Positions 3,186 to 11,260 of a stretch of DNA of 13,777 bases are shown piece after piece (positions within the stretch are counted from its first letter, which is position 1; each line of letters opens with the position of its first letter). The notes under the pieces were generated by a model that ran no database searches, was not told the origin of the DNA, and saw only the letters and a program-made list of their open reading frames with translations. Position numbers and translations under genes: made by a program. Origin of the DNA: Bryobacteraceae bacterium (GTDB taxonomy: Bacteria > Acidobacteriota > Terriglobia > Bryobacterales > Bryobacteraceae); contig JASHQT010000087.1 of NCBI GenBank assembly GCA_030039005.1, forward strand, positions 1 to 13,777, read 5' to 3'.

Positions 3186-5927
3186 ATGCCACTCTGCGCT
3201 TCCTGCGTCACGGAGATCCCCGAAACCAGCCGATTCTGCCCGCAATGCGGCCAACCGTCCGGCCGCCTGGATCCGGAAAACGCGGTGACCAGGGCGACGA
3301 CGGCTCTCACGCAAGCCATGCCCGAGCAGCGCACGCGCACCCCTGCGCCGGTGCTGGACGCGAGAGAACGCTTCGCGCCGGGCGCGCTGCTGGCCAGCCG
3401 GTATCGCATCGTCTCGCGGTTGGGCAAAGGCGGCATGGGCGAGGTCTATCGCGCCGACGATCTCATCCTGGGCCAGCCGGTGGCCCTGAAATTTCTGCCG
3501 GAATCCGCCAAGGACAACCTGAATCTTCTCACCCGCTTTTATGACGAAGTGCGCATCGCGCGCCAGATCTCGCACAAAAACGTCTGCCGCGTTTACGACA
3601 TCGGGGACATGCAGGGACAGCCGTATCTTTCCATGGAGTACATCGATGGCGAGGATTTGGGCAGTCTGCTGCGCCGCATCGGGCGGCTGCCTCAGGATAA
3701 AGCCCTGGAGTTCGCGCGCAAGCTGTGCGCTGGCGTCGCAGCGGCTCACGCGCAAGGCATTCTGCATCGCGATATCAAGCCGGCCAACATCATGATCGAC
3801 GCGCGGGGCGAACTGCGGATCACCGATTTCGGCTTGGCTGCGGTTGCCGAGCAATTGCAGGGCGCCGAGATTCGCAACGGCACTCCCGCTTATATGGCGC
3901 CCGAGCAGCTTCGCGGCGAACATGTGTCGGTGCAGAGCGACCTGTACGCGGTCGGTCTGGTGCTCTATGAGATGTTTACCGGAAAGATGCCGTTTGAGGC
4001 CGGCACGCTCGCCGAGATGACGCGCCTGCGTCAGGAGAGCCGCGTGACCATGCCCTCAACGCTCGTCGGCGAGCTGGATAAGAATGTCGAGCGTGCGATC
4101 CTGCGGTGCCTGGAAGCCGATCCAGCGCTTCGGCCGCCGTCCGCGCTCGCGCTCGCGGCGATGCTTCCCGGCGGCGATCCGCTGGCCGCCGCGTTGGCCG
4201 AAGGCGAGACGCCGTCACCAGAAGCCGTCGCCGCGGCAGGTTCCACAAAGGCGCTGTCGCCCAGGATCGCCGTTCCCGCGCTCGCAGGGATCCTTTTGGG
4301 AATCGCTGCGTACGGTCTGATCTCTCCGCGGTTGTACCTCCTCAACCTGGTGCCGATGGAGGACTCGGCCGACGTGCTCCAGGCCAAGGCGCGCGATATC
4401 GTTCGGAGCTTTGGCTATATCGAGCGCGCGGGCGACTGGGCGGGGGGCTTTGTTCCGGATCCCATTAATATCGCGTATCTGAGGGCTAAGGGGCACAACA
4501 TGGCCGACTGGGCGCGGATCTTTGCGCTCCCTGCGTCCGGTCTTGAATATTGGTATCGGCAAAGCCCGACGCCTCTCGTCCCGGAGCGTAGCCGGTCCTA
4601 TGGTGCAACCGGCATCACGGACCCGCCCCTTACGGCGCCGGGAATGATCTCCATGGCCCTGGAAAGCGACGGGCGCTTACGCCGTTTCACCATGGTGCCG
4701 CCGGACCGGGAGCCGTCTGGTACGGCAACCCAGACGCCCAATTGGGCTCCTCTGTTCGCTGCCGCGGGACTGGACATGCGCGATTTCAAGCCGGCCGCGC
4801 CGGAATGGGCGCCGCCCTTCGCCAGTGACGCGCGCGCCGCCTGGACGGGGCCGTACACAGGCCGGCCCGATGTTCCGGTGCGCGTCGAGGCGGCTTACTT
4901 TCAAGGCCGTCCTGTCTTCTTTCAGGTTTTTGGGCCGTGGACGCGCTCGAATCGCCTGATCCCGCAGACTCTGACTACTGTGCAAGCCATCAGCAACGCC
5001 GCGTATTACATTTTCGGCGCGCTGGTTCTGATCGCTGCGATTTGGATCGCCCACTACAATTGGAAGGCCGGCCGCGGCGACCTGCGCGGTGCGACCCGCA
5101 TTGGAATCTATTGCGCCTGCATGAGCCTGATCGCTTGGGTACTGCGTGCGCACCATGTGGCAGCCCAGGGCGAACAGGGTCTGATCGGCGATGCGCTGGC
5201 CAATGCGGCGTTCATACTATTGGAATACTGGCTCATCTACCTGGCTCTCGAGCCCTGGGTGCGGCGATATTGGCCACAGTCGCTGATCACGTGGTCGCGC
5301 GTGTTGGCTGGCAGATGGCGCGATCCGCTGGTGGGACGCGATCTGCTGTTCGGAGCCTTGTTCGGGATGGTCTACCTCTTGTTGCTGGCCCTGTTCTCCT
5401 TCGCCACTATGCGGAGCGGCTCCCCCAGTTTCGCGGAGTTCAACCTGGGTCAATTGGACGGATTGCGCGCGTTTTCCTCCTCCACTGTGGACAATCTGTG
5501 GGGAGTGGTTTCCGGCTCGCTGGTTCTTTTCCTGACTCTGTTTCTATTGCGGGCGCTGCTGAGAAAGCAGTGGCTGGCCGCCATTGTTTGGGTCGTGGCT
5601 TGGGCCGCGGTCCGGATGTTCCAAGGCAACGCAATGCCGTTTCCCGAGAACCTGTATCTGGCGGCGCTCTACGTGCTCATTTACAGTCTTTTGGTTTTCA
5701 TCCTGCTGCGCCTCGGATTTTTCGCGCTGGTAGTCTCGACCTTCGTGTTGGATACGATGAGCCGCTCGTTTTTCACCACGGATTTCTCGGCTTGGTATGG
5801 CGTGAGCTCGCTGGCTGTCGTGCTCCTGATCGCCGCGTTAGGCCTGTGGGGATTCCGGCTCGCACTCGGGTCGCGGCCCCTGTTCGGCGATGCCGCAGGC
5901 GTCTTGGCGAGCCGTCGGCTACAATGA
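3186..5927 (+). CDS. Zinc-ribbon Ser/Thr protein kinase with polytopic membrane C-terminus
   Basis: This 913-residue protein has three parts. Residues 4-21 carry a zinc ribbon (C4, C7, C18, C21). Residues ~73-330 form a Hanks-type kinase that looks catalytically complete: G-K-G-G-M-G-E-V loop at 80-87, Lys102 in A-L-K, Glu121 in the C-helix, H-R-D-I-K-P-A-N with Asp196 and Asn201, D-F-G at 214-216, and A-P-E at 238-240. The HRD arginine suggests activation-loop control. A first membrane segment (~361-380) follows, then a ~220-residue Trp/Pro-rich region that topology would place outside, then about eight further membrane segments (~602-892) with a D-P-L-V-G-R-D-L-L motif at 713-721. Such fusions are common in Acidobacteria. 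The outer region may sense a signal and drive the kinase, but ligand and targets are unknown. PurS starts 6 bases downstream. Confidence 0.92.
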   Translation: MPLCASCVTEIPETSRFCPQCGQPSGRLDPENAVTRATTALTQAMPEQRTRTPAPVLDARERFAPGALLASRYRIVSRLGKGGMGEVYRADDLILGQPVALKFLPESAKDNLNLLTRFYDEVRIARQISHKNVCRVYDIGDMQGQPYLSMEYIDGEDLGSLLRRIGRLPQDKALEFARKLCAGVAAAHAQGILHRDIKPANIMIDARGELRITDFGLAAVAEQLQGAEIRNGTPAYMAPEQLRGEHVSVQSDLYAVGLVLYEMFTGKMPFEAGTLAEMTRLRQESRVTMPSTLVGELDKNVERAILRCLEADPALRPPSALALAAMLPGGDPLAAALAEGETPSPEAVAAAGSTKALSPRIAVPALAGILLGIAAYGLISPRLYLLNLVPMEDSADVLQAKARDIVRSFGYIERAGDWAGGFVPDPINIAYLRAKGHNMADWARIFALPASGLEYWYRQSPTPLVPERSRSYGATGITDPPLTAPGMISMALESDGRLRRFTMVPPDREPSGTATQTPNWAPLFAAAGLDMRDFKPAAPEWAPPFASDARAAWTGPYTGRPDVPVRVEAAYFQGRPVFFQVFGPWTRSNRLIPQTLTTVQAISNAAYYIFGALVLIAAIWIAHYNWKAGRGDLRGATRIGIYCACMSLIAWVLRAHHVAAQGEQGLIGDALANAAFILLEYWLIYLALEPWVRRYWPQSLITWSRVLAGRWRDPLVGRDLLFGALFGMVYLLLLALFSFATMRSGSPSFAEFNLGQLDGLRAFSSSTVDNLWGVVSGSLVLFLTLFLLRALLRKQWLAAIVWVVAWAAVRMFQGNAMPFPENLYLAALYVLIYSLLVFILLRLGFFALVVSTFVLDTMSRSFFTTDFSAWYGVSSLAVVLLIAALGLWGFRLALGSRPLFGDAAGVLASRRLQ

Positions 5928-5933
5928 GATTCC

Positions 5934-6179
5934 ATGAAAGCGCGTGTGTACGTCTCGATGAAGCCGACGGTGCTCGACCCCCAGGGTCAGACCATACGGT
6001 CGGCGCTCGCTGGCCTCGGGCACACCTCGATCGCCGCGGTGCGGCAAGGGAAGTTTTTCGAAATCACGCTGGAGCCGGGGACCGACCGCACGAAGGCCGC
6101 TCCTGAGATTGAGCAGATCGCCCGCGACGTGCTGGCCAATCCGGTGATCGAAGAATACCGGGTGGAATTCGTGGATTAG
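5934..6179 (+). CDS. purS: Phosphoribosylformylglycinamidine synthase subunit PurS
   Basis: This 81-residue protein has the usual PurS length and pattern: R-V-Y-V-S-M-K-P-T-V-L-D-P-Q-G near the start, then L-A-G-L-G-H, V-R-Q-G-K-F-F-E-I, and a C-terminal helix and strand (D-V-L-A-N-P-V-I-E-E-Y-R-V). PurS is the small structural subunit that joins PurQ and small PurL to make FGAM synthase, which converts FGAR to FGAM with glutamine and ATP in cytosolic purine synthesis. purQ and purL are not in this window. The gene begins 6 bases after the kinase stop, with no clear Shine-Dalgarno; a TACAAT (5920-5925) could be its own -10. The following gene has its own promoter signals, so purS probably ends its transcript. 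Confidence 0.9.
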   Translation: MKARVYVSMKPTVLDPQGQTIRSALAGLGHTSIAAVRQGKFFEITLEPGTDRTKAAPEIEQIARDVLANPVIEEYRVEFVD

Positions 6180-6192
6180 CCTTCGTCCGGCG

Positions 6193-6216
6193 CTCAAATT
6201 TTCCCTCAAGATTTCC
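6193..6216 (+). repeat. Imperfect tandem 12-base repeat at the -35 region
   Basis: CTCAAATTTTCC (6193-6204) is followed directly by CTCAAGATTTCC (6205-6216), matching at 10 of 12 positions. The second copy contains the proposed -35 of the sigma-28-like promoter. It may be an activator site, a duplicated promoter half, or chance. Confidence 0.35.
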
Positions 6217-6231
6217 GTTCTCTGTCGATAT
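6206..6231 (+). promoter_or_regulatory. Sigma-28 (FliA)-like promoter of the porin gene
   Basis: TCAAGATT (6206-6213), 10 bases, then GTCGATAT (6224-6231). This resembles the flagellar sigma-28 pattern TAAAGTTT-N11-GCCGATAA, matching 6 of 8 positions in each box with a spacer one base shorter. A second copy with the same spacing precedes the binding-protein gene (7687-7712). The implied start is near 6238, giving a leader of about 88 bases before ATG 6326. Confidence 0.55.
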
Positions 6232-6325
6232 GCAGGCCGGTGCGCCTGCCGCCGCTTTGCTCCGCCCTGAACTTCGCCCTCAAACTAAGGCGCGCCCCGA
6301 CGATGAGTTTTCGCAAGGAGAACAT

Positions 6326-7540
6326 ATGACCCGGTGTTTTCGATTGCTTGCTTCCGCGGTGATGGGGGCGGCGGCGCTTTCCGCTCAGGATATCTCTCCA
6401 TACACCAATTTCACGGTGTTCGACAAGACATTTCAGTTCCACGGATTCTTCTCCGAGGGCTACGCTCAATCGAATGACAATAACTACCTGACGATGGAAA
6501 CCAGCAAAGGCACCTTCGATATGACCGACGCTGGCGTAAACCTATCGAGCCAGCTCACCGATCACCTTCGCATAGGCGCACAGGTATACGCCCGCGATAT
6601 CGGGCAATTGGGAAAATGGCACCCGACACTCGATTGGGGTTTTGTGGACTACAAGTTCACCGATTGGTTCGGCATCCGCGCTGGCAAGGTGAAAACGGTG
6701 CTGGGACTGTACAACGATACCCAGGATTTGGAGTCCTTGCAGACGTGGGCCCTTTTGCCGCAGTCAACTTATCCCCTGGATTTGCGCGCCACAAATATAG
6801 CCCACACCGGCGGCGACTTTTACGGTACCATCCCTTTGAAGAGAGCCGGCTCGCTGACCTATACGGCGTACGCAGGTCTACGGTCGTTTGACCCTTGGGG
6901 CGGATACTACTATTTCTCGTTCGCCAATGGTTTCAATATTGAGAATATTTCGGGTCATACCGAGGGCTGGGATCTGCGCTGGAACACGCCCGTCTCCGGT
7001 TTGACGATTGGCTCTTCCTGGGTCAATTCCACGATCAACCGCGGCGGCCAGTGGTTTAACGGGCCTTTCGCCGGTTATTACTACGACATCACAGACAATC
7101 CGGAACGAACGATTGCAGGCTATCTGGAATTTATTCACGACAAGTGGCATTTGGCGGCGGAATTTCGCAACTTCAATAACATTGACGAGATCAGCGCATC
7201 CCTCTTCGGCAGCCAACCGTTCCCCTTCAACGCCGGCGACCAGGAGTCCTATGAATCGGCGGCCTACCGGATCTCCAAGTATGTCGAGGTCGGCACGTAT
7301 TATTCGCATTACCACGTCGACACGCCCAATGCCGGCGATCCCAATTCGACCCACATTAACGACAATACGGCCACGATCCGCATCGATCTGACGCATAATT
7401 GGGATCTGAAGGTGGAAGAACATTTCATGCGTGGCTATGGCGGCGCCTATGCCGCGCATGGCTTCTACACCTCGCAGAATCCTGATGGCTTCAAGCCGAA
7501 TACCGACCTGTTTCTGGTCCGTACCGGCTGGAACTTCTGA
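6326..7540 (+). CDS. Porin-like outer-membrane beta-barrel protein
   Basis: This 404-residue exported barrel starts at ATG 6326, chosen because AAGGAG (6315-6320) lies 5 bases upstream and a signal peptide begins at once (M-T-R-C-F-R-L-L-A-S-A-V-M-G..., cleavage near L-S-A/Q-D, residue 20). An in-frame ATG at 6230 lies within the promoter and would add a basic, non-signal extension. The mature protein alternates strands and turns (F-H-G-F-F-S-E-G-Y-A, a W-G-F-V-D-Y-K-F strand, G-I-R-A-G-K-V-K) and ends in V-R-T-G-W-N-F, a terminal aromatic beta-signal recognised by the BAM machinery. Residues 61-145 recall phosphate/anion-type or 'porin' families, but substrate cannot be read from sequence. 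Its C-terminal half is clearly related to the broken gene at 9769-10407. It is probably expressed from the sigma-28-like promoter at 6206. Confidence 0.85.
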   Translation: MTRCFRLLASAVMGAAALSAQDISPYTNFTVFDKTFQFHGFFSEGYAQSNDNNYLTMETSKGTFDMTDAGVNLSSQLTDHLRIGAQVYARDIGQLGKWHPTLDWGFVDYKFTDWFGIRAGKVKTVLGLYNDTQDLESLQTWALLPQSTYPLDLRATNIAHTGGDFYGTIPLKRAGSLTYTAYAGLRSFDPWGGYYYFSFANGFNIENISGHTEGWDLRWNTPVSGLTIGSSWVNSTINRGGQWFNGPFAGYYYDITDNPERTIAGYLEFIHDKWHLAAEFRNFNNIDEISASLFGSQPFPFNAGDQESYESAAYRISKYVEVGTYYSHYHVDTPNAGDPNSTHINDNTATIRIDLTHNWDLKVEEHFMRGYGGAYAAHGFYTSQNPDGFKPNTDLFLVRTGWNF

Positions 7541-7660
7541 GCGGTTTCCAGGTCTGCGATCGGCCTTGCTCGCGTCCGCCACGCACGCTGGTTGCGCACC
7601 CGTGTTCCGCGTTTACCGGGTGCTTGCCTTGCGACCCCGAGCGCCTCTTGCGTGGACGGG

Positions 7661-7682
7661 GCGGGCGTCAGACGCCGCTTTT
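7661..7682 (+). terminator. Terminator-like hairpin after the porin gene
   Basis: A short GC stem (GCG/GGCG pairing with CGCCGC, five-base loop TCAGA) is followed by TTTT. It lies about 120 bases after the porin stop and 5 bases before the next sigma-28-like promoter, a sensible place to end the porin transcript. The T tract is short. Confidence 0.4.
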
Positions 7683-7686
7683 GGGC

Positions 7687-7712
7687 TCAAGCTGCAGCCG
7701 GTTGGCCGATAT
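7687..7712 (+). promoter_or_regulatory. Sigma-28 (FliA)-like promoter of the binding-protein/MCP pair
   Basis: TCAAGCTG (7687-7694), 10 bases, then GCCGATAT (7705-7712). The -10 matches 7 of 8 positions of the flagellar sigma-28 consensus GCCGATAA, and the geometry is identical to that at 6206-6231. The predicted start near 7719 gives a leader of about 114 bases before ATG 7833. MCP genes are classic sigma-28 targets, which supports the call. Confidence 0.65.
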
Positions 7713-7741
7713 GGGAAGTAAGTGCATCCGGCCGGGGAGCG

Positions 7742-7770
7742 AGGCGTACCGCCCCGGGGTGCTACCTCGG
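7742..7770 (+). other. Strong hairpin in the leader of the binding-protein gene
   Basis: GAGG-c-GTACC (7741-7750) can pair with GGTGC-ta-CCTC across a GCCCCGG loop, and an alternative CCGGGG/CCCCGG stem overlaps it. These are mutually exclusive pairings in the ~114-base leader. I could not match it to a riboswitch class that I know (see rejected items). It may simply affect mRNA stability. Confidence 0.35.
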
Positions 7771-7832
7771 ATTCGCCATGAGCTTGTGAGAAGAAGTTGG
7801 CACCAAGATCTGCAATGCGAAGGAGATTCTTA

Positions 7833-8291
7833 ATGACACGGAAAATCGTACGGGCGGCAAGCACGTGGCCGAGGACACCGGCACGCTGTCTCCTGGTGGC
7901 CATGCTAGCCACCGGCGCGGCCACCGCCTGGGCGGCGGACATCAAGGTGATCGCTAATTCGAGCGTGGGAGCTTCCTCGGTGTCGGCCGAGGAGCTGAAG
8001 GGCGTGTTTCTGGGCACCAAGTCGTCGTTGAGCGACGGGAGCCACGTGGAGCCGGTGCTGCTGAAATCGGGCGCGGTGCATGAGGCGTTCCTGAAGGATT
8101 ACGTGGGCAAGTCGGATGCGGCGCTGGAGACCTATTACCGCAGCCTGGTGTTTACGGGCAAAGGGTCGATGCCCAAGTCGTTCGCCAGCGAGGCCGAAGT
8201 CGTGGCATTCGTCGAAAAGACCAAAGGCGCGATCGGGTATGTCAGCGCCGCGACGGCCACCGCGAGCGCGAAGGTGCTGGAAGTCAAGTAG
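7833..8291 (+). CDS. Short PstS-like periplasmic binding protein
   Basis: This 152-residue protein starts at ATG 7833; AAGGAG (7820-7825) lies 7 bases upstream, while the in-frame TTG at 7797 has none. A signal peptide (hydrophobic L-L-V-A-M-L-A-T-G-A-A at 20-30) is cleaved near A-W-A/A-D-I-K (34-35). The mature domain of about 117 residues follows the short 'phosphate ABC transporter substrate-binding-like' pattern: S-A-E-E-L-K-G-V-F-L-G-T-K, a D-G-S-H-V-E-P-V segment, H-E-A-F-L-K-D-Y-V, Y-Y-R-S-L-V-F-T-G-K-G and G-A-I-G-Y-V. It is about half the size of true PstS, and the second lobe and transport partners (pstCAB) are absent. It is 27 bases ahead of the MCP gene and likely co-transcribed with it, which suggests a soluble ligand-binding partner for the receptor. 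Ligand identity (phosphate or another anion) is inference. Confidence 0.82.
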   Translation: MTRKIVRAASTWPRTPARCLLVAMLATGAATAWAADIKVIANSSVGASSVSAEELKGVFLGTKSSLSDGSHVEPVLLKSGAVHEAFLKDYVGKSDAALETYYRSLVFTGKGSMPKSFASEAEVVAFVEKTKGAIGYVSAATATASAKVLEVK

Positions 8292-8318
8292 GCGATCGAG
8301 AGTTCGGAGAGTACAATC

Positions 8319-9746
8319 ATGCGTTTGAATATCACCGCCAAGATCTGGCTGAGCGTGGGAGTTTTCGCGCTGGGATTTGTTCTGTCGATCTTGCTCGGCC
8401 AGGTGCAGGGAACGCTGACGGAGCGGGAACTGGGCGTCACGTCCAGCGCCCTGTTCCCGGCGGCCCAGAAGTCGCAACAGGCCGAGGCGGAATTCGAACG
8501 CATGTTGAAGGGCTTTGGAGACGCGGTGATTACGCAGGACAAGGACGGACTCGCGCGTGCGGCCGGCGAAGGAGCGCAAGCGGTGTCCCAGCTCAAAGCC
8601 GTAGCGGCGATCGCGGGTTTGGCGGCCGACCGGGCGGCGGAAGCGCAGCGGCTGGAGGGCCAGGTGCAGCAGTTGCTCGACGATGCGCGCAACACGTACG
8701 GAGTGGTGCTGGCGGATCCGCAAAAGATGGCGGCGCTGCAGGACAATATCCGCGGCATCGCGGGCCGCAACGATGAAATCCAGGCCGCACTGAACAAAGC
8801 GAAGACGGAATTTTCCGGGGATCTGGATCGCGAACTGAGCGCTTTGCAAAAGCGCTCGGCGCAGCAGCGCTGGCTGGCCATCATCGTCTTCGGGGCCACG
8901 ATCCTGGTGGCGGCGGTGATCGTACATATCACCATTCGCCGCTCGATCACCGGTCCAGTGCTGCGCGTCATCCATGGCGTGCAGGGAGCGGCCGATGAAG
9001 CGGCTCAGGCTTCTCATCAAATGTCAGAGTCGGGCAGTGTGGTCGCGCGCGATGCGCAGGAACAGGCGGCCTGCGTGGAGGAAACCTCGGCTTCACTGGC
9101 GGAAATGTCGGCCACCACCATGGAAAACGCTACGCGCGCCGGCGAAGCCGACAAGCTGATGCAGGAGGCGAGCAAGACCGTGCAGGAAGCCGCGCAAGCC
9201 ATGGAAGGGCTGACCAATTCCATGAACCTGATTTCGAAATCCAGCAGCCAAGTGGCGGCGGTCTTGAAGAGCATCGACGAGATTGCCTTCCATACCAACA
9301 TCCTGGCTCTGAACGCGGCAGTGGAGGCGGCGCGGGCCGGGGAAGCCGGCGCCGGATTCAGCGTTGTGGCCGACGAGGTGCGGTCGCTCGCGCATCGAGC
9401 GGCCGAAGCGGCGCGCAACAGCGGCGACATCATCGAGCGCACCATTGCCGACGTCAACAAAGGCGTGGAACTGGCGACGGTGGCACACGAAGCTTTCAGC
9501 AATGTCACCACCAAAATTGCCGGTAGCAGCCAGGTGATGAGCCAGATCGCCGCTTCGAGCGACGAGCAGGCACGCGGCATTACAAACGTCGGGCAGGCGA
9601 TCCACCGCATCGAACTGCTCACGCAGAACAACGCCGCCAACGCGCACAAAACCGCCGAGGCCGCCGCCGCGATGGGTGCGCAAGTCACGGCGACGCGCAA
9701 GCACATCGATGAGTTGGTAGCCGTGGTCGGCGCCGAGGAAGACTGA
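8319..9746 (+). CDS. Methyl-accepting chemotaxis protein
   Basis: This 475-residue receptor has TM1 at ~8-27, a periplasmic helical region of ~155 residues that looks like a four-helix bundle, and TM2 at ~185-206. Beyond TM2 there is only S-I-T-G-P-V-L-R-V-I-H-G before the coiled-coil signalling domain. A complete HAMP (two helices, ~50 residues) is not apparent. The hairpin tip (320-361) is nearly the family consensus: I-D-E-I-A-F-H-T-N-I-L-A-L-N-A-A-V-E-A-A-R-A-G-E, with trimer/kinase-contact residues F324, N332, E336 and R339 present; residue 325 is His where Gln is usual. There is no C-terminal CheR/CheB pentapeptide (the end is V-G-A-E-E-D). GGAG (8306-8309) precedes ATG 8319. It should relay periplasmic signals, perhaps via the adjacent binding protein, to CheA/CheW encoded elsewhere. 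Confidence 0.93.
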   Translation: MRLNITAKIWLSVGVFALGFVLSILLGQVQGTLTERELGVTSSALFPAAQKSQQAEAEFERMLKGFGDAVITQDKDGLARAAGEGAQAVSQLKAVAAIAGLAADRAAEAQRLEGQVQQLLDDARNTYGVVLADPQKMAALQDNIRGIAGRNDEIQAALNKAKTEFSGDLDRELSALQKRSAQQRWLAIIVFGATILVAAVIVHITIRRSITGPVLRVIHGVQGAADEAAQASHQMSESGSVVARDAQEQAACVEETSASLAEMSATTMENATRAGEADKLMQEASKTVQEAAQAMEGLTNSMNLISKSSSQVAAVLKSIDEIAFHTNILALNAAVEAARAGEAGAGFSVVADEVRSLAHRAAEAARNSGDIIERTIADVNKGVELATVAHEAFSNVTTKIAGSSQVMSQIAASSDEQARGITNVGQAIHRIELLTQNNAANAHKTAEAAAAMGAQVTATRKHIDELVAVVGAEED

Positions 9747-9768
9747 CCCCACTGTTTTTTCGGCATGT

Positions 9769-10407
9769 AGCTATCGAATCTACGCCGGCTCGCGGAGCGA
9801 CGATGCGACGGACGGCTTTAGCATCGGTCTGGCGGAGGCGAGCCTGAATCTCGGAGATACGAGCGGGCCGACCTGGGGAGCGGACGTGCGCTGGAATTCT
9901 CCCGTCAGCGGCTGGATTCTGGGGGCCTCATACCTAAGCAACGACCTCAAGGCTCCCGAGGCCAGCATGGACGGGATGCCGACACCTTATCGATTCAAGT
10001 ACGACACGCAAGATTTCTATTCGGAATATGACTACAAGAAGGTAACGCTCTCGATGGAGTGGAATATCGAGCCGTCCTGGCAATACCTCGGAACTTCACC
10101 GGTTCTCTACAGCCCCTCCCGCATTTGGTACTGGATGGGCACGTATCATGTGACCGATCGATGGTCCGCTGGAGCGTACTACTCCACCGATTGGGGACCC
10201 GAGGGCAATCGAGACCGCAACGACCCCGCCAACTACAGTCATGAGGCCGTGGTCAATACGCGGTTCGATTTCAATAAGTTTTTCTACCTCAAGGTCGAGG
10301 GGCACTACATCGACGGCGACGCCGACGGATTGTATTCGATCTACAATCCCAACGGGCTGGAGAGAATCACGCGCCTGTACGTTATGCGTGCGGGTTTTGC
10401 ATTTTAA
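9769..10407 (+). pseudogene. 3' half of a second porin-like barrel gene (5' end lost)
   Basis: Similarity to the intact porin begins abruptly at S-Y-R-I-Y-A-G (from 9769), which aligns with T-Y-T-A-Y-A-G at residues 178-184 of the 6326-7540 product. It continues to the end: D-V-R-W-N-S-P-V-S-G versus D-L-R-W-N-T-P-V-S-G, a late L-K-V-E-G-H-Y strand, and a terminal V-M-R-A-G-F-A-F beta-signal. The signal peptide and roughly the first 178 residues are missing. The frame opens only after TAG 9718-9720, and the first usual start codon is GTG 9886, so no plausible barrel can be made. The two copies are clearly diverged paralogues, not a recent duplicate. Loss of the 5' half lies 23 bases after the MCP stop, which suggests a deletion or insertion joined here. 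Confidence 0.82.
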
Positions 10408-10465: not shown

Positions 10466-11260
10466 ATGGACCTGCAACTGGAGGGGAAACGCGCGCTGGT
10501 GACCGGATCGACCGCCGGAATCGGTTACGCCATCGCCGCAGCGCTGGCGCGGGAGCGTGCGCACGTCATCGTCAACGGCCGGACCCAACCGCGTGTGGAC
10601 GCCGCACTGGAAAAGCTGAAGGCTGCCGCGCCCGGCGCCGGCGTGGAAGGATTCGCCGCCGATTTGGGAACTAGCGAAGGCGTGAAACGGGTCATCGCGA
10701 AATATCCCGAGGTCGAGATTCTGGTCAACAATCTGGGTATCTTCGAGGTCAAACCATTCGAACAAATCCCTGACGAAGACTGGTTCCGTTTCTTCGAGGT
10801 CAACGTGATGAGCGGAGTGCGCCTCGGCCGGCAGTATCTTCCCCGCATGAAGGAACGCGGTTGGGGCCGGATTGTATTCATTTCGAGCGAATCGGCGTTG
10901 CAAATTCCCAAGGAAATGATTCATTACGGCATGACCAAGACCGCGCAGCTTGCCGTCGCTCGCGGGATGGCGGAAACCACGGCCGGCACCAACGTCACGG
11001 TGAACTCGGTGCTCGCCGGTCCGACCAAATCGGAAGGCGTGGAGACGTTCGTGGAGCAGATGGCCGGGGCGCAGAACGTCAGCGCCGCGGAGGTGGAGAA
11101 AGAATTCTTCCACAACATGCGTCCGTCGTCGCTGCTCCGGCGCTTCGCGAGCACGGCCGAAGTGGCCGCGATGGTGGCATTCGTGTGCAGCCCGCTTTCC
11201 TCGGCCACCAACGGCGCCGCACTGCGCGCGGACGGCGGCGTCGTGCAAGCGATTGTCTGA
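10466..11260 (+). CDS. Short-chain dehydrogenase/reductase (SDR)
   Basis: This 264-residue cytosolic oxidoreductase has the classical SDR layout. The cofactor loop is T-G-S-T-A-G-I-G (13-20), N-N-L-G (88-91) replaces the usual NNAG, Asn113 is present in E-V-N-V, and the catalytic residues are Ser141, Tyr154 and Lys158 (Y-G-M-T-K). After the first strand the sequence reads V-I-V-N-G-R-T, and an Arg at the end of that second strand is typical of NADP(H) preference. The C-terminus has the usual G-A-A-L-R-A-D-G-G pattern. ATG 10466 is chosen because it starts 6 residues before the first beta-strand; TTG 10430 would add a non-conserved stretch. No Shine-Dalgarno is clear. The substrate is unknown. 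Its stop is only 5 bases from the stop of the convergent minus-strand gene. Confidence 0.9.
   Translation: MDLQLEGKRALVTGSTAGIGYAIAAALARERAHVIVNGRTQPRVDAALEKLKAAAPGAGVEGFAADLGTSEGVKRVIAKYPEVEILVNNLGIFEVKPFEQIPDEDWFRFFEVNVMSGVRLGRQYLPRMKERGWGRIVFISSESALQIPKEMIHYGMTKTAQLAVARGMAETTAGTNVTVNSVLAGPTKSEGVETFVEQMAGAQNVSAAEVEKEFFHNMRPSSLLRRFASTAEVAAMVAFVCSPLSSATNGAALRADGGVVQAIV

Follow-up and report, generated by a model that had tools for sequence, protein, structure and literature searches.

Promoters read by sigma-28 (FliA) are given the consensus TAAAGTTT-N11-GCCGATAA in the available part of one source (PMC7286023), and the RpoF consensus of Pseudomonas, in the available part of another, is TAAAAG-N15-GCCGATA (PMC3247240). 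FliA sites of Escherichia coli have a spacer of 14 by our own count, and tar-tap-cheRBYZ, tsr, aer and trg are the FliA-controlled chemoreceptor genes that appear in the accessible text of the same study (PMC4183435). The word porin is absent from the main text of that paper. In the literature searched, which lay mostly outside subscription journals, we found neither a FliA-controlled porin of the kind described below nor a study of FliA promoters in Acidobacteria.

The stretch of DNA analysed here (the window; 13,777 nucleotides), from a soil acidobacterium, carries two sigma-28-like sites in front of genes for an outer-membrane porin and for a binding protein followed by a methyl-accepting chemotaxis protein (MCP). 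Its features are as follows.

3186-5927, protein kinase
5934-6179, PurS
6206..6232, + strand, sigma-28-like site 1, TCAAG-N13-GTCGATATG, upstream of the porin gene
6326..7540, + strand, outer-membrane porin of 404 aa with a signal-peptide-like start and a predicted beta-barrel, ATG at 6326 after AAGGAG
7541..7832, + strand, gap of 292 bp between porin and binding protein, with a hairpin GCACCCG...CGGGTGC at 7596-7623 that lacks a T run
7687..7713, + strand, sigma-28-like site 2, TCAAG-N13-GCCGATATG, in front of the genes for binding protein and MCP
7833..8291, + strand, small PstS-like periplasmic binding protein of 152 aa, ATG at 7833 after AAGGAG
8319..9746, + strand, MCP of 475 aa (MCPsignal PF00015, E 2.8e-38)
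9766..10407, + strand, 3' part of a second, diverged porin, 29% identical to residues 176-404 of the first
10466-11260, short-chain dehydrogenase

The resemblance to known sigma-28/FliA promoters lies in the -10 box GCCGATAT, the -35 box T(C/A)AAG and the position shortly before a chemotaxis gene; as with the chemoreceptor genes of E. coli, an MCP stands behind a sigma-28 site. The window differs in having 13 nucleotides from TCAAG to the -10 box, vs. 14 in E. coli and 14-15 in the acidobacterial order studied here, and in having a porin as one target. Unlike the E. coli genes, it also has a periplasmic binding protein in line with the MCP, which in relatives is joined by a porin.

Pfam and NCBIfam searches gave no match for the porin at the usual thresholds. 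AlphaFold predicts a beta-barrel for it (pLDDT 77), and the best Foldseek matches of this model in the PDB were the general porins OmpC, Vibrio OmpT, PorB and OmpF (TM about 0.5, rmsd 7-9). The first ATG in the porin frame is at 6230, inside site 1, and the one at 6326 is preceded by AAGGAG. The binding protein had no Pfam match either; some of its relatives carry the name ABC-type phosphate transport system substrate-binding protein and others are called hypothetical protein. Proteins named Bryobacteraceae occur among the relatives of both binding protein and porin, in line with the acidobacterial origin of the window. Its model, of moderate quality (pLDDT 71), suggests that it may share the fold of PstS-type phosphate-binding proteins, and its best PDB matches were PstS structures (E 3.4e-6, TM about 0.5, short chain). 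It differs from PstS in adjoining an MCP and in its length of 152 aa, about 120 columns of which were aligned to chains mostly of 240-320. The ten window genes scanned with Pfam include no ABC transporter gene, and our guess from the model is that the ligand might be phosphate or another oxyanion.

The original prediction had described two sites with equal boxes and spacing at 6206 and 7687, and both were recovered there on the + strand, as TCAAG-ATTTCCGTTCTCT-GTCGATATG and TCAAG-CTGCAGCCGGTTG-GCCGATATG, respectively. Their common form, TCAAG-N13-G(T/C)CGATATG, occurs exactly twice in the whole window. The looser pattern TCAAGN{12,15}CGATA also has exactly two matches in the window, whereas 200 dinucleotide shuffles gave a mean of 0.09 and none of the 200 reached two. 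Searching the window for TCAAG-N13-GNCGATAT with up to two mismatches returned the same two sites alone, both perfect. The strength of the two-site signal lies in these perfect matches, because the tolerant search often gives pairs in shuffles (two or more matches in 30 of 200, mean 0.72). A sigma-28 score applied to both strands with spacers of 12-16, its weights set by hand once the sites were known, ranked 7687 first (16.9) and 6206 second (15.9), with the next match at 14.9.

The -10 box of site 2 agrees with GCCGATAT at 8/8 positions and that of site 1, GTCGATAT, at 7/8. Both sites carry the GCCGATAA/T expected in the -10 box of a sigma-28 promoter, and both have TCAAG, one of the two forms (TAAAG/TCAAG) of the -35 box. 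The sigma-28-type character first ascribed to the sites is supported. The spacers ATTTCCGTTCTCT and CTGCAGCCGGTTG are dissimilar, and the sites are therefore not one copied stretch. As had also been proposed, both precede genes: they are intergenic, with 94 nt between the end of the -10 box and the likely ATG of the porin and 120 nt in the case of the binding protein, which is followed by the MCP.

A profile search of the genome collection with the binding protein detected 29 loci. In all 23 acidobacterial loci (L001-L021, L026 and L029, from 19 assemblies), the gene immediately upstream of the binding protein encodes a porin of the window's family, and an MCP related to that of the window stands behind a binding-protein gene in 15 of the 23, which is a lower bound since some loci end soon after the binding protein; in L019 the similarity to the window's MCP is only 26%. 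The window itself has porin, binding protein and MCP in this order on one strand, with a gap between the first two of 292 bp vs. 33 bp in L009. A porin in a motility regulon is less odd because in relatives the porin precedes the binding protein and often the MCP. Outside the phylum the gene order is reversed, binding protein then porin (L022-L025 and L027), and L028 has no porin match.

The Desulfoluna kinase-binding protein-porin loci (L022-L024) resemble the module in that the binding protein adjoins the porin. They differ in that the binding protein comes before the porin and in that, at L022, the one locus covered by a Pfam scan, the place of the MCP is taken by a PAS-histidine kinase-receiver protein. 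Each of the three loci has TAAAG-N15-GCCGATAT at 2.4-2.5 kb ahead of the binding-protein gene, near 3541-3622 and with differing spacers; in L022 it lies just before the PAS-histidine kinase-receiver gene that opens the cluster. An MCP behind the Desulfoluna site was rejected, the gene being a histidine kinase. A Desulfoluna homologue of the binding protein scored just under the PBP_like_2 cut-off (23.7 of 27 bits).

Tandem porins or tandem porin-binding protein pairs were seen in L001, L003, L012 and L016, with L001 and L003 being arrays of porin-binding protein pairs. The second porin of the window (9766-10407) starts directly behind the MCP, lacks its N-terminal half and had no Pfam match; it is probably the remnant of a tandem array. 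A porin may plausibly have occupied the space from site 2 to the binding protein in the past, which would match the layout of the arrays. A strong intrinsic terminator in the present porin/binding-protein gap is unsupported: the hairpin has no T run and, with z = -2.2 as a 41-nt cut-out, it sits in an ordinary 100-nt stretch (z = -0.4).

The two sites are probably sigma-28-type promoters of a sensory module that consists of the porin and of the PstS-like binding protein with its MCP. RNA polymerase with the flagellar sigma factor would most likely start near 6238 to give the porin transcript, and a second start near 7719 would give a transcript of the binding protein with the MCP. Flagellated cells would thereby be equipped with a channel in the outer membrane, a ligand-binding protein in the periplasm and the chemoreceptor by which that protein is read. 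Relatives probably transcribe all three genes from a single promoter ahead of the porin, and in the window the module genes would have come apart, each part with its own site. We infer that FliA reads the sites despite the 13-bp gap, along with the start points, the co-transcription and the working of binding protein and MCP as one receptor; FliA and flagella are assumed for the window's own genome.

Site 1 is conserved at orthologous genes and site 2 is not. Scores of at least 14 within 200 nt of the porin start were found in 20 of 38 distinct upstreams vs. 3.15% of 4000 random windows from the same loci (Mann-Whitney p = 4.6e-16 with the window included), a conservative comparison as the random windows include the tested upstreams; without the window the figures are 19/37 and p = 1.9e-15. 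Start codons of porin and binding-protein upstreams were picked by rule. Ten porin alignments without the first 45 residues and five without a start codon upstream of the alignment were left out before the 38 were reached, the five including L102 (the same gene as in L001 and L122) and L129, both scoring 14.7, and seven binding-protein alignments were left out on the same grounds. No two kept porin upstreams of equal length are more than 60% alike (ungapped), although as orthologues they are still not independent. Only 2 of 33 binding-protein upstreams reached 14, namely those of the window and of L100. By our own reading of the coding assignment the L100 match falls in the end of the porin reading frame, and the window alone among the 33 has a strong intergenic site before the binding protein.

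All six array porins whose start is seen carry a CCGAT box at N15 with poor -35 boxes, the -10 boxes being ACCGATAAG, ACCGATAAG and ACCGATAAA in L001/L102/L122 and GCCGATTGG, GCCGATAAG and GCCGATATG in L003/L108. The genome closest by porin (G018, 54-55% identity) has an N16 site with a poor -35 box at one porin (14.7), and at its second porin (L123) no site reaches 14, the best score being 11.2. The idea that the porin belongs to the motility regulon gained from this comparison: membership in the regulon of the order is supported, on purely computational grounds, by the sites before relatives' porins and by the same boxes before FliS, CheX and c-di-GMP genes in three relatives (below).

The spacing proposed as specific to the lineage did not survive at the level of the order. 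With the strict boxes TMAAG/SCCGATAWG, the 257 genomes of the order gave 45 sites at N13 (as many as the rows listed) vs. 45 for the reversed-pattern control, a sum added by eye. There were 266 vs. 129 at N14 and 350 vs. 54 at N15, and TMAAG-N14/15-SCCGATAWG thus totals 616 vs. 183; these N14/N15 figures were retyped by hand and summed, and the numbers of genomes with a site (143 for N14, 162 for N15) agree with the tallies. TAAAG and TCAAG were counted together in the N14 and N15 sets, and TCAAG matches occur in both. Because TCAAGGTTCGTGGGGTTCTCCCGATAAG, a 28-bp match present four times in G142 (C247, C424, C476 and C618), sits in a repeat, the N14 count is slightly inflated. Since N15 and N14 are enriched over the control and N13 is at background, the sigma-28 of the order is predicted to act mainly at 15, also at 14, and not at 13. 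The 20 porin upstreams scoring at least 14 have N15 in ten, N14 in eight, N16 in one and N13 in one, the window.

Both window sites, at N13, fall outside the 14-15 of the order. A strict N13 site was absent from the genomes nearest by DNA (G206, G195, G196, G142 and G029) and by porin (G018), an absence that carries little weight since each has at most four strict sites of either N14 or N15; nor are these genomes close to the window, porin identity being 55% at best. Nearer porins, 71-88% identical (P0121-P0131), come from metagenomes. Viral contigs, considered as a source of closer DNA, held no porin relatives. The N13 spacing is thus off-type, and either it is derived in the window's own sublineage or recognition rests on the -10 box. 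In the strict sense the two sites are candidates for the sigma-28 class, since both have an off-type spacing and the second lacks a counterpart in relatives. Judged by their boxes and position both look like sigma-28 promoters, and for site 1 conservation adds to that likeness.

Recognition through the -10 box, with TCAAG at N13 a coincidence, is a sub-case of the preferred reading that shares in its probability, and taken alone we regard it as doubtful. According to the available part of the study, changes in the -35 region of the Pseudomonas putida bifA promoter had no obvious effect and changes in the -10 region lowered activity, but shortening the spacer did have an effect (PMC5300878). 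By the authors' own measure the bifA spacer is 13 bp long, a figure that may differ in its box borders from our count, and deletion of fliA only halved the activity of the promoter (PMC5300878, available part). In relatives, CCGATA(A/T)G is kept in 8 of 13 usable flagellin upstreams, mostly with poor -35 boxes. Against a role for the -10 box alone, TCAAG stands at an equal distance in both window sites despite their dissimilar spacers, and in a number of relatives the -10 box is likewise paired with a T(C/A)AAG-like box.

That the sites are decayed or chance look-alikes, with porin and receptor transcribed from other promoters (sigma-70, ECF or read-through), seems unlikely to us. This reading would account for the imperfect match to the working geometry, N13 being at background in the order, and for the 18 of 38 porin upstreams that score below 14. 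It sits poorly with two exact matches where 0.09 were expected, both just upstream of genes, and with the strong enrichment at the position orthologous to site 1. A sigma-70 promoter was rejected as the alternative for porin and receptor, as positions 5900-8400 hold no sigma-70-like match on the + strand and a single one on the - strand, within the porin gene.

Patterns were counted genome-wide because the flagellin loci of relatives gave a poor matrix; they were set aside as a source, the -10 boxes being fair, the -35 boxes poor and several starts not found. Among 19 module-bearing genomes, TMAAG-N13..15-SCCGATAWG exceeded its reversed control in G007 (17 vs. 0), G003 (12 vs. 1), G006 (10 vs. 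0) and G009 (6 vs. 0), with no excess in G002 (0 vs. 3), G005 (2 vs. 2) and G008 (0 vs. 2). Thirty-three sites were taken from G006, G007 and G009, and the genes behind 20 chosen ones were scanned with Pfam. Nine of these belong to motility, chemotaxis or signalling (FliS, CheX, a transglycosylase SLT, two GGDEF proteins, an EAL-receiver, an HDOD, a receiver-LuxR and a PAS/GAF protein), FliS and CheX alone being of strictly flagellar or chemotaxis families. The N14/N15 sites before FliS, CheX and the transglycosylase come from one relative each, and the distance from site to start is 263-330 nt in five of the nine (FliS 316, CheX 78). The other 11 genes have no evident motility role and comprise a beta-lactamase-family protein, a cytochrome, a DJ-1 family protein, a polysaccharide biosynthesis protein, a propeller, a LuxR-type regulator, two BACON-like proteins and three without a family.

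FliA/WhiG proteins over the family cut-off and flagellin were both detected in 18 of 20 module-bearing genomes and were both absent from G008 and G017. Two to four FliA/WhiG proteins over the cut-off were present in 11 of the 20 (G001, G003, G004, G005, G007, G009, G010, G012, G016, G018 and G019), with four in G004. Flagellin occurred in 22/22 genomes of the order with a porin match vs. 199/235 without one, a weak association (Fisher p = 0.05), and co-occurrence of porin and flagellin was discarded as evidence for that reason.

It is quite improbable, in our judgement, that the sites are read by a non-flagellar FliA/WhiG paralogue, which might be dedicated to porin-receptor modules or to some other programme and might favour a shorter gap. 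For this reading, several genomes have multiple FliA/WhiG proteins, members of the family share promoter specificity and can serve other programmes, as with the predicted WhiG promoters of Rubrobacter, some at a type IV pilus cluster (PMC8325347, available part), and G008, with neither flagellin nor a FliA over the cut-off, has a fair site before a porin (L010, 14.9). Against it, the porin sites share boxes and spacing with those before FliS and CheX, and a crude profile, a few of whose sequences were in the wrong frame, matched no FliA-like gene in the module flanks at E 1e-5.

The sigma-28 reading of the module draws on the exact matches, on a gene order kept among relatives, on the abundance of the motif upstream of orthologous porins, on its boxes recurring in front of some of the relatives' motility genes, and on FliA and flagellin in 18 of 20 module-bearing genomes. 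Counted against it are the N13 spacer, the porin upstreams below 14, the lack of conservation of site 2, the 11 of 20 genes without an evident motility role, the 263-330 nt from site to start in five of the other nine, the second porin of G018 without a site, and G008 and G017, which lack FliA and flagellin while a site is present at L010. If the reading is true, outer-membrane permeability for a chemotactic ligand would be co-regulated with its receptor and the flagellar regulon would extend to a channel. The order's motility regulon would also gain a working motif, TMAAG-N14/15-SCCGATAWG. A similar signal precedes the channel gene in many relatives, which suggests that the channel is part of the cell's sense-and-swim equipment. 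A bolder version, to which we give little credence, would have the flagellar sigma factor transcribe porin, PstS-like binding protein and chemoreceptor together as a conserved sensing unit of acidobacteria, so that permeability of the outer membrane to the attractant would be built along with receptor and motor; in the window's sublineage, sigma-28 would also work at a 13-bp gap.

Several genes behind canonical sites deserve separate mention. L145, one of the three without a family, looks by its sequence like a further outer-membrane barrel and is weakly similar to the window porin (E 1e-5 in a two-sequence comparison). L136 and L169, from two genomes, follow a canonical sigma-28 site at 78 and 75 nt, respectively, and encode long proteins (at least 655 and 642 aa, respectively) that look exported and have weak BACON-like matches. 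In G007, five canonical sigma-28 matches (L140, L142, L148, L150 and L152) fall before or in a repeated protein family whose members share HIELQSxN-like and VLYVGR-like stretches, and these five matches may be one duplicated element.
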